This document shows positions 5,356 through 54,506 of a stretch of 64,000 nucleotides of DNA, piece after piece. A model generated the notes under the pieces. That model had not been told where the DNA came from and did no database searches. It saw only the letters and a list, made by a program, of their open reading frames with translations. How positions within the stretch are numbered: position 1 is the first letter of the stretch; every line of letters starts with the position of its first letter. The stretch comes from an uncultured Flavobacteriaceae bacterium. Lineage in GTDB: Bacteria > Bacteroidota > Bacteroidia > Flavobacteriales > Flavobacteriaceae. The DNA lies in the NCBI GenBank assembly GCA_947488345.1, contig CANKZQ010000005.1, forward strand, positions 124,001 to 188,000. Direction: 5' to 3'. The translations under genes were made by a program, and so were the position numbers.

Positions 5356-5361
5356 ATTTAA

Positions 5362-5754
5362 AGTGGAGACGGAGGGACTCGAACCCTCGTCCAAACAAGC
5401 AGCTAAAGCGCTTTCTACATGTTTATTTCTCGATTAATTTTCGACGAATAACTGACCAAGAACAGCCCACTATTCGCTTATCTTCTTTAGTTTCGAAATA
5501 CTATCGAAGTCTAGTATTTCTATGCTTACTTTTACGATGTCTCAAAGTTGAACGCGGTTAGCAAACGCTTTCAGGAGACATAAAGCTTCTCTACCTAGTA
5601 GAGACGAGGCTAAATCCTACTGTAATTCAGATTATGCAGCTAAAGCGTAGTTATTCTCGCCGTTTAAGAGTTGAAATTGAGTTTTACGAGTACTATTTCA
5701 TTGCTCGACATGCTTACATTTTAACTGATCTCGCTGTCAAAACCAGTCGTCCCC
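5362..5754 (-). ncRNA. ssrA: Transfer-messenger RNA (tmRNA), tag GENNYALAA
   Basis: tmRNA rescues ribosomes stalled on broken messages by acting first as an alanyl tRNA and then as a short message that adds a degradation tag. The 5' end (GGGGACG, minus strand, 5754-5748) pairs with CGTCTCC near 5365-5371, forming the acceptor stem with discriminator A at 5364. The T-arm GGTTCGAGTCCC is visible at about 5372-5385. The tag frame is at 5632-5661 on the minus strand and reads GENNYALAA then TAA, the Bacteroidota type; the resume Ala is probably the preceding GCN-like codon. The CCA end is not encoded. Length is about 390 bases, normal for this RNA. Confidence 0.96.
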
Positions 5755-52999: not shown

Positions 53000-53464
53000 A
53001 TGGGTATTAAAAGTTTTCAAGGACGAAGAAATCAGGTAAAAAAAGAAGAGTTGAAACCGGCATTGGTTTCTGATTTTATGACAAAAAAGTTAATCACGTT
53101 TAAACCAGATCAACCGGTAGCTGAAGTGATGCAAATATTGGTAAAAAATAAAATTTCTGGTGGTCCGGTGGTTAATGAGAAAAATGAACTATTGGGGATT
53201 ATCTCTGAAGGTGACTGTATCAAACAAATATCAGAAAGTCGCTATTATAATATGCCCGTTGAAAATGATACTGTAGATAAACACATGGTAAGAAATGTAG
53301 AAACGATTGATGGAAATTTGAATGTTTTTGATGCTGCACAGAAATTTTTAGAATCAAAGCGTCGGCGTTTTCCGATTGTAGAAAATGGTAAGTTGGTGGG
53401 GCAGATTAGTCAGAAAGATATCTTGATTGCTGCCATGGAACAGAAAGGTCAAAATTGGCGCTAA
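53000..53464 (+). CDS. Two-CBS-domain protein
   Basis: A 154-residue soluble protein with two CBS motifs (about 25-85 and 90-148) forming one Bateman module, which binds adenine nucleotides and acts as an energy sensor in many proteins. SGGPVVNEKNELLGIISEGD and RRFPIVENGKLVGQISQKDI are the family strand-turn patterns. No effector domain is fused, so it acts in trans or is a stand-alone sensor. It is followed by the structured minus-strand element at 53475. Confidence 0.9.
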   Translation: MGIKSFQGRRNQVKKEELKPALVSDFMTKKLITFKPDQPVAEVMQILVKNKISGGPVVNEKNELLGIISEGDCIKQISESRYYNMPVENDTVDKHMVRNVETIDGNLNVFDAAQKFLESKRRRFPIVENGKLVGQISQKDILIAAMEQKGQNWR

Positions 53465-53474
53465 GTAAACTACA

Positions 53475-53700
53475 TAAAAAAAGCCCGTTACGATGTAACG
53501 GACTCTTTTGAATACTAACCTAAACCTCTTATTACTTATTGTATTTTTAATTTCCTAAATCTTGGGGGAGAAAGGAGAAAAACGTTCACGTTATTTATTC
53601 TCTTTTTCATAGCAATTTCCCCGTTTTAATTTCGGTGAAACCTTGTTTGTTACGCGGCTTCGAATATTAAACAACTGTCTTTTAATTATCCCCCTATTAA
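53475..53700 (-). ncRNA. Putative structured small RNA, copy A
   Basis: One of two related elements transcribed leftward. On the minus strand it starts with a G-run (GGGGGATAATT, 53694-53684), contains GAAGCCGCG in a hairpin loop, the string TTGCTATGAAAAAGA, a 33-base block identical to copy B (53551-53583) and ends with an intrinsic terminator: CCGTTAC-gat-GTAACGG plus a run of T. Length about 220 bases. Possible long-range pairing joins the 5' G-run to the C-run in the identical block. It may be a 6S-type or other regulatory RNA. Identity is not established. Confidence 0.55.
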
Positions 53701-53860
53701 AATTCAATTTTTTTTAGAAAAGCATTTAAAATACTGAAAATCAAATAGATAAAAGTTGATATTTTTTTGAAAGTATTGATTGATTTTGATGTGAAAATAG
53801 AAAAGATGAGCCTTTTTTTGATGTTTAAAAGAGCGAAAAACATTGCTATAACTTGAACAA

Positions 53861-54076
53861 TAAAAAAAGCCCACCAAATGGTGGACTTTCTACACTAAAC
53901 CTAAACCTTATGTTTTTTGTTTTTGATTTCCTAAATCTTGGGGGAGAAAGGAGAAAAACTATCGACGGTATAAAATTTCTTTTTCATAGCAACTTTCCCG
54001 TTTTATTCGATAAAAGCGTCGTTTGTTACGCGGCTTCGAGTATTAAACAATCGTCGTGCAATTATCCCCCCTTTAA
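53861..54076 (-). ncRNA. Putative structured small RNA, copy B
   Basis: The second copy of the element at 53475-53700, about 380 bases away, in the same orientation. It shares the G-run (AATTATCCCCC on the plus strand at 54060-54070), a 19-base block (54021-54039) and the 33-base block (53927-53959). Its terminator stem is CCACCA-aa-TGGTGG: the sequence differs from copy A but the pairing, the flanking AG/CT pairs and the c-a mismatch are kept, which is covariation expected for an RNA hairpin. Confidence 0.55.
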
Positions 54077-54155
54077 AATGTTAAAATGTTAAAATATTTT
54101 TTTAAATACCTGAAAATAAGAACTATATGATTTAATAAAAATAAGAGAAGAATGG

Positions 54156-54506
54156 TTAATCTTTTTTGATAAGTAGATAAAAATCGTTATCCAACGCTAA
54201 ATAACCTTGATCGTAAATGTAATAATAGGTGTTACCTGTTTTCGTGGTATAAATAGAAGTGAAAAGGTTAAAATCGAAATTATACGTTAGAAGCTTTGCC
54301 CTCGTAATTTTGGTTTTACCGCTTTGGTTTAAGTCAGAAAGAGTTTTATAATTTTTACGAAGGCGATTATTGGTATTTCGAATTAAATTTTTACTGTCCT
54401 TATTGACTTTATTATTATAAGAATTTCTGCAATAGTCTGTACAGAACTTTTTATCTATTCGCCCTTTAAAAGGTTCTCCACATTCTAAACATTGTTGTTT
54501 TTGCAT
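54156..54506 (-). CDS. Small zinc-finger protein, unknown function
   Basis: A 116-residue protein that begins with a zinc-binding motif, CLECGEPF (Cys6, Cys9) and CTDYC (Cys22, Cys26), spaced for a zinc ribbon of the DUF2116-like kind. A basic helical part (about 40-70) could bind nucleic acid. The rest is beta-rich and aromatic. It is divergent from a short SSB gene, sharing a palindrome-rich promoter, so they may belong to one regulon. No established function. Confidence 0.75.
   Translation of the reverse strand: MQKQQCLECGEPFKGRIDKKFCTDYCRNSYNNKVNKDSKNLIRNTNNRLRKNYKTLSDLNQSGKTKITRAKLLTYNFDFNLFTSIYTTKTGNTYYYIYDQGYLALDNDFYLLIKKD

Follow-up and report, generated by a model that had tools for sequence, protein, structure and literature searches.

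RNAs that antagonize small RNAs are already known, as are multi-copy small RNAs of Bacteroides that bind at start sites (PMC8687705 and, for FopS, PMC11697453, each in the text portions available). In this paper, the RNA-like units under study are termed class III, and the two small-RNA-like families to which they are complementary are termed class I and class II. CJnc180 of Campylobacter jejuni acts against the small RNA CJnc190 and is cis-encoded with its partner (PMC8687705, available portions). Class III would likewise be an RNA acting against small RNAs, but its units lie on other contigs than their partners or far from them, occur in several copies and are antisense to two families, and their action is predicted. 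FopS of Bacteroides thetaiotaomicron comprises 14 paralogous sRNAs and is thus multi-copy like class III and also from Bacteroidota. As far as the accessible text of PMC11697453 goes, FopS has its description from Bacteroides and an entry in Rfam. It represses mRNAs and binds in the vicinity of start codons, which the seed of class I might do as well, whereas class III is complementary to two other small-RNA-like families. Neither the class III units of the window nor the class I units scanned gave an Rfam match to FopS. The Rfp RNAs of Flavobacterium psychrophilum, e.g. Rfp18, are independent flavobacterial transcripts according to the available part of PMC9723704, as class I may be; the word sponge is absent from the main text of that paper. 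In the literature searched, with the supplements of PMC9723704 and their list of 85 new RNAs outside its coverage, no description of class I, II or III RNAs was found, and class I may already be among those 85 RNAs.

The window, i.e. the whole analysed stretch of 64,000 nucleotides from an uncultured Flavobacteriaceae bacterium, carries two class III units on the minus strand (Table 1), with ssb and pgk nearby. A preliminary description had taken them as paralogous structured elements in one orientation, about 380 bases apart. The pair was confirmed with a spacing of 376 nt and with 83 and 88% identity in blocks of 66 and 52 nt. An identical block of 19 nt (53645-53663 / 54021-54039) and the G-run start on the minus strand of both copies were found as described; the longer identical block (53550-53583 / 53926-53959) exists as well, with a length of 34 nt instead of 33. 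The terminal hairpins keep their pairing with different stem sequences, as had been claimed. Their c-a mismatch is visible on the plus strand, but in the minus-strand RNA it is a G-U wobble, and hence transcription of the minus strand is favoured. In the 1.7-kb region, 7 terminator-like sites were counted on both strands, compared to 0.9 ± 1.1 in shuffled sequences. The proposed pairing of the G-run with a C-rich block fared less well: it comprises three pairs, two of them invariant and the third broken in 3 of 29 aligned copies (copy 1 of L035 and both copies of L085). The folding z-scores of the single window copies are modest (-2.26 and -1.37). The open middle, regarded as a structural feature, turned out to contain a block antisense to another putative RNA; the preliminary description could not have seen this. 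A tmRNA gene is located at 5361-5754 on the minus strand of the window.

Table 1 Features of the two class III units and of their neighbours in the window
Feature	Position	Strand	Remarks
Class III type 1 copy A, G-run to terminator T-run	53860..54071	-	putative 5' end
Class III type 1 copy B, G-run to terminator T-run	53474..53694	-	putative 5' end
Copy A block 1, TTGTTTAATACTCGAAG	54034..54050	-	conserved, enters hairpin; no antisense partner found in six genomes
Copy B block 1, TTGTTTAATATTCGAAG	53658..53674	-	conserved; no antisense partner found in six genomes
Copy A block 2, GGGAAAGTTGCTATGAAAAAGAAAT	53975..53999	-	24-25 nt unbroken predicted pairing (one G-U) with both class I units of the genome
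Copy B block 2, GGGGAAATTGCTATGAAAAAGA	53601..53622	-	core of 24-25-nt unbroken predicted pairing (two G-U) with both class I units
Copy A block 3, CTCCTTTCTCCCC	53941..53953	-	core of 19-21-nt unbroken predicted pairing (1-3 G-U) with the five class II units seen
Copy B block 3, CTCCTTTCTCCCC	53565..53577	-	core of 19-20-nt unbroken predicted pairing (1-3 G-U) with the same five class II units
Copy A intrinsic terminator (hairpin and T-run)	53864..53891	-	
Copy B intrinsic terminator (hairpin and T-run)	53477..53509	-	
CBS-domain gene, convergent neighbour	53000..53464	+	in 12/15 class III loci
116-aa gene without Pfam match, upstream neighbour	54156..54506	-	in 11/15 class III loci

The distribution of class III was examined with a covariance model trained on 29 of the 36 matched copies. 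Class III was detected in 14 of the 17 genomes of the genus, including 11 of 11 good ones, with 1-5 mostly tandem copies per genome; a DNA search gave matches in 16 of 17 genomes, some of them to class I only. Copy A scored 134.1 bits (G000:C5:177924-178074) and copy B 126.9 bits (G000:C5:177548-177698), both being members of the training set. The alignment holds 29 of 32 non-identical extracted copies; copy 2 of L079, L080 and L081 were omitted because of inserts or near-duplication, and two copies of L077 did not pass extraction. The preliminary suggestion was to look for homologues beside pgk/CBS/ssb genes; the neighbours listed in Table 1 are mostly kept across the genus, several of the 15 class III loci being short contigs. 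No class III unit was found in 394 genomes of other genera with the covariance model and strict filters, by which homologues could be missed; among the 397 sampled genomes of the family only the three of the genus matched. A pattern scan of named genomes yielded eight stretches, all from Flavobacteriaceae or Bacteroidetes and two of them from Aureibaculum (A. luteum and A. flavum). Thus, the host genus is probably Aureibaculum.

A hairpin followed by a T-run, with various stems, is situated 3' of 34 of 35 class III copies (copy 2 of L085 being doubtful among these, as the hairpin picked by the script differs from the one seen by eye), and the 35th copy ends at a contig end. Pairing is complete (100% of the cells) in an internal hairpin formed by columns 38-42/58-62, where both partners have changed in two pairs. 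With all eight pairs of the structure included, the covariation score is 0.174 compared to 0.144 ± 0.007 in shuffles (reached by 0 of 500). The two double-change pairs were reached in 40 of 500 shuffles, and the sequences are related. The mean column identity of the 19 type 1 rows is 0.93 in block 1, 0.97 in block 2, 0.98 in block 3 and 0.71 elsewhere. Type 2, a second paralogue type (L035, L073, L075, L076, L082), is represented by 10 rows. These are similar throughout, with an identity of 0.91 outside the blocks, so that the blocks do not stand out there. The consensus of block 2 in type 1 is GGGAAA(A/G)TTGCTATGAAAAAG, and forms of AAGTGGAAATTTTATGATAA replace this block in type 2. By eye, a TCAG....TTA stretch was recognized about 42 nt before the G-run of many copies, but no clear TAnnTTTG box upstream of class III, unlike class I. 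The predicted unpairedness amounts to 0.49 for block 2, 0.39 for block 3 and 0.49 overall; the blocks are hence not especially open.

Block 2 is the reverse complement of the seed region of class I, which is found at unlinked loci. A class I unit consists of a TAnnTTTG box, hairpin 1, the sequence CTTTTTCATAGCAATTTT, a terminator stem opening with C's and a T-run. Of 199 Flavobacteriaceae genomes, 170 contained the exact 18-mer of class I (by genus, 169 of 198; among good genomes, 149 of 165), with none listed for the reversed control. This 18-mer alone does not prove a class I unit: at two places of G119:C12 (L229/L249) and at L250 it stands without hairpin and terminator, in surroundings that resemble gene starts. 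Two further features were counted in sets chosen by motif and weighted to the genus. Of the 79 instances passing the terminator pattern, 65 had TAnnTTTG at most 70 nt upstream, compared to 786 among 13502 windows of background. A perfect stem of 6 bp or longer abutted the seed in 74 of 78 distinct upstream sequences, compared to 9.8 in mononucleotide shuffles. For hairpin 1, 64 distinct 5' arms were listed by the script, a few of them clearly mis-picked (e.g. L233). The class I motif adjoins dnaJ in 41 of 48 loci, usually just downstream of the gene; some of these loci are one place fetched twice, and L229 has the motif without a class I unit. Class I is a widespread putative sRNA of the Flavobacteriaceae.

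At the class I places no Rfam family was matched (15 and 20 sources scanned), and identity with Flavo-1 was rejected for this reason. An earlier designation as rnpB-linked proved too narrow, as the RNase P RNA was in the locus of 6 of 15 sources (one of them a class III locus) and of none of 20 others. Class I loci include L003, L025, L211-L228, L231, L232, L234-L240 and others; tandem copies occur in G002 (L241, three at 252-nt spacing) and in G033 (L244, four).

Matches to the seed 17-mer with up to two mismatches, class I and class III copies themselves included, exceeded the reversed control in six of seven genus genomes (e.g. 36 versus 15 in G119 and 28 versus 13 in G161); in G149 they were below it (22 versus 32). 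As ATGAAAAA is a common gene start, it would give the same bias as true targets. Start sites of the form AAAATTGCTATGAAAAAG, complementary to the class I seed, were observed at lipoprotein-like gene starts in single genomes (L007, L250). Flavobacterium johnsoniae favours A at position -3 upstream of starts (PMC6847099, available text). Block 2 has T at this position (TTGCTATG) and is thus not an optimal start by this rule.

Block 3 (CTCCTTTCTCCCC) is the reverse complement of GGGGAGAAAGGAG, the 13-mer that marks class II. With up to one mismatch, nine genomes of the genus had 6-15 sites each, a count that takes in the class III copies, compared to 0-3 for the control; without mismatch the 13-mer was found in only 14 of 199 genomes of the family. 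Class II forms an unlinked tandem array behind TACATTTG or a similar box, with units 96-126 nt apart, each of them a GA-rich hairpin (GGGGAGAAAGGAGAGAAG ... CTTTTCTCCTT) that carries a strong SD-like AGAAAGGAG. The genes flanking the array, read in L165 and L171 only, are presumably a DUF4870-like and a MiaE-like gene. No Rfam family was detected at class II in 11 loci, with one tRNA elsewhere. Among 12 genomes outside the genus that contain the 13-mer, similar hairpins were seen in two (G025, G146) and, by eye, in none of the other ten.

Arrays of 2-5 units occur in L165, L166, L167, L168, L171, L172, L174 and L175, with no gene directly behind. A single-unit form, whose promoter region resembles part of the array promoter, was seen in L173, L176, L177, L178, L183 and L184. 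In L178 and L183 it is located upstream of a secreted-type gene of 128/129 aa and of a gene that we take to encode a LuxR-type response regulator. Furthermore, three close genomes share a pair of GGGGAGAAAGGAT sites with a spacing of 508-525 nt (L180, L181 and L182), which may be additional partners of class III; in L180 these are situated between a tRNA gene and a gene presumably encoding an ECF-type sigma factor.

In the window genome, copies A and B show uninterrupted complementarity of 24-25 nt (1-2 G-U) to each of the two class I units and of 19-21 nt (1-3 G-U) to the five class II units seen. Pairing energies were calculated with RNAduplex for 22 class III copies of eight genomes, with partners from the same genome and 100 shuffles each. 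Shuffling followed the selection of the best partner, class I was represented by a single copy for G149 and G151, and RNAduplex energies overstate long interactions. Against class I, 14 of 14 type 1 copies were better than their shuffles (-38.1 to -46.8 kcal/mol, z -2.8 to -7.7); none of the 100 shuffles equalled 12 of these copies, and for the other two copies 2 of 100 did. The type 2 copies gave no class I signal in the duplex comparison with shuffles (8 of 8, z -1.2 to +1.0). Against class II, all 22 copies surpassed their shuffles (-41.8 to -59.2 kcal/mol, z -3.7 to -7.8); no shuffle was as good in 21 copies and one in the remaining copy. For block 1, a search of six genomes returned no antisense partner, as all 16 exact matches were class III copies, and a third partner RNA was rejected on this result. 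Its matches with one mismatch, class III copies subtracted, numbered 2-5 per genome compared to 2-12 for the control, some recurring in close genomes. Since block 1 is conserved and no partner was found for it, conservation of a block does not trivially entail complementarity in this system.

In G157, the class III block extension CCCCTAAG fits the class II unit CTTAGGGG of the same genome, while in other genomes class III CCCCAGA or CCCCCAAG stands against class II CTCAGGGG and others. The G157 match is suggestive of one co-change. The class I seed hardly varies, so that no compensatory change is visible for block 2 and class I.

The class III units possess terminators of their own and show conserved complementarity well beyond chance to putative small RNAs, type 2 to class II only. 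On this gene anatomy, the conservation in the genus, the long complementarity to two unlinked conserved loci and its significance against shuffles we base the proposal that class III units are paralogous small-RNA genes acting as multi-copy dual antisense sponges of class I and class II RNAs, to which we assign a probability of about 0.55. If the units are transcribed and pair in the cell, block 2 would bind the seed of class I, the short sRNA usually downstream of dnaJ, over about 20-25 nt, and block 3 the repeat unit of the class II hairpin-array RNA over about 13-21 nt. Binding would titrate both RNAs by sequestration or mark them for decay, with control running from class III to its partners, and would relieve whatever class I and class II repress. 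Class I might repress translation starts of the form TTGCTATGAAAAA, and block 2 would mimic such starts. Type 1 would then be a two-headed sponge for class I and II, and type 2 a sponge for class II only. In most of the sampled genera the class I motif occurs with no class III match; class III would hence be at most a lineage-specific layer.

The complementarity as such has no direction, and the same pairing could be read in reverse, with class I and/or class II regulating class III, which would reach targets of its own through block 1 or the hairpin. The wide distribution of class I, compared to class III seen in the genus only, and the conservation of block 1 in spite of its missing partner RNA are in line with this. 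However, two separate antisense blocks for two RNA families fit a collector better than a target, and the tandem multiplication would suit titration. We regard the reversal as unlikely, with an appreciable chance of being correct. Rather unlikely in our view is that no base pairing takes place and the shared blocks are sites of a common RNA- or DNA-binding protein, their opposite orientation being incidental. Short common motifs of fixed sequence, the nearly invariant core of class I and the average predicted accessibility of the blocks would be expected of protein sites. Relative to the predicted transcription, however, the blocks of class III lie on the opposite strand to those of classes I and II, as RNA complements and not copies. 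Moreover, the complementarity of block 2 takes in the CCC of the class I terminator stem, and the co-change in G157 also speaks against a protein site.

Two further explanations concern the nature of the units themselves. Block 2 reads as a translation start, and its ATG could open a small peptide in a short mRNA whose translation is repressed by class I; a frame of 18 aa is common to three close genomes (window copy A, L083, L084) with one residue differing. But the frames of 22 type 1 copies range from 6 to 100 codons with no common peptide, on which ground a coding role was disfavoured, the spacing between the ATG and block 3 does not stay constant modulo 3, and type 2 copies lack the ATG-bearing block. 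We consider this reading very unlikely. The preliminary description had compared the units with 6S-type RNA in two adjacent copies, for their length, G-rich 5' end, C-rich block and open central region, and 6S-Flavo RNA (RF01685; PMC2864571, available text) indeed bears a general likeness in its G-rich 5' end and open middle. No Rfam family reached the gathering score at the units, however; the best sub-threshold hit, with an E-value of 0.068, was an unrelated leader. The RF01685 model matches at another, unlinked place of the same genome (G000:C1:69832-69958; 86.9 bits, cut-off 85) and not at class III units, and 3 of 29 homologues do not retain the G-run. 6S-Flavo was thus rejected for the window units, and 6S-type identity in general appears extremely improbable. 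Flavo-1 (RF01705), also named as a candidate, was rejected as well, since its three copies over the cut-off are all located elsewhere in the genome.

If the sponge proposal is correct, class III would be a Bacteroidota RNA capturing two unrelated small-RNA families at once and multiplied in tandem. It would also point to a widespread Flavobacteriaceae sRNA that has no Rfam family and lies beside a heat-shock chaperone gene. The long complementarities are directly testable predictions of base pairing in Aureibaculum luteum and A. flavum. According to the available part of PMC9976891, ribosomes of Bacteroidia sequester the anti-SD, and rpsU of many Flavobacteriales has an extended SD. Class II raises the question which role an RNA rich in strong SD-like sequences has where ribosomes do not recognise the SD. 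One could imagine a three-part RNA network of the Flavobacteriaceae tuning translation start. It would comprise an old and widespread sRNA linked to dnaJ, with a seed complementary to a good start site (AAAATTGCTATGAAAAA), a tandem GA-rich RNA array with a strong SD (AGAAAGGAG) in a lineage with hidden anti-SD, and class III titrating both as a mimic of the start site (block 2) and of the anti-SD (block 3, CUCCUUUCU). This wider picture is speculative and improbable as a whole. The host's own 16S rRNA 3' tail was not found in a pattern search of 15 contigs or contig parts and an Rfam scan of five. In this group the tail is taken to read CCUCCUUUCU, and the anti-SD identity of block 3 is assumed from this.

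Two minor observations concern other loci. At L109, L117 and L118, from three close genomes (G000:C5:77385 and relatives), a CATAGCAA motif with a terminator-like hairpin is located at a gene 3' end. L119 (G149:C1:490569), possibly another sponge, has a stretch of about 80 nt in which two sites of the TTGCTATGAAA type are joined by a related one, TTGCTGTGAAG.
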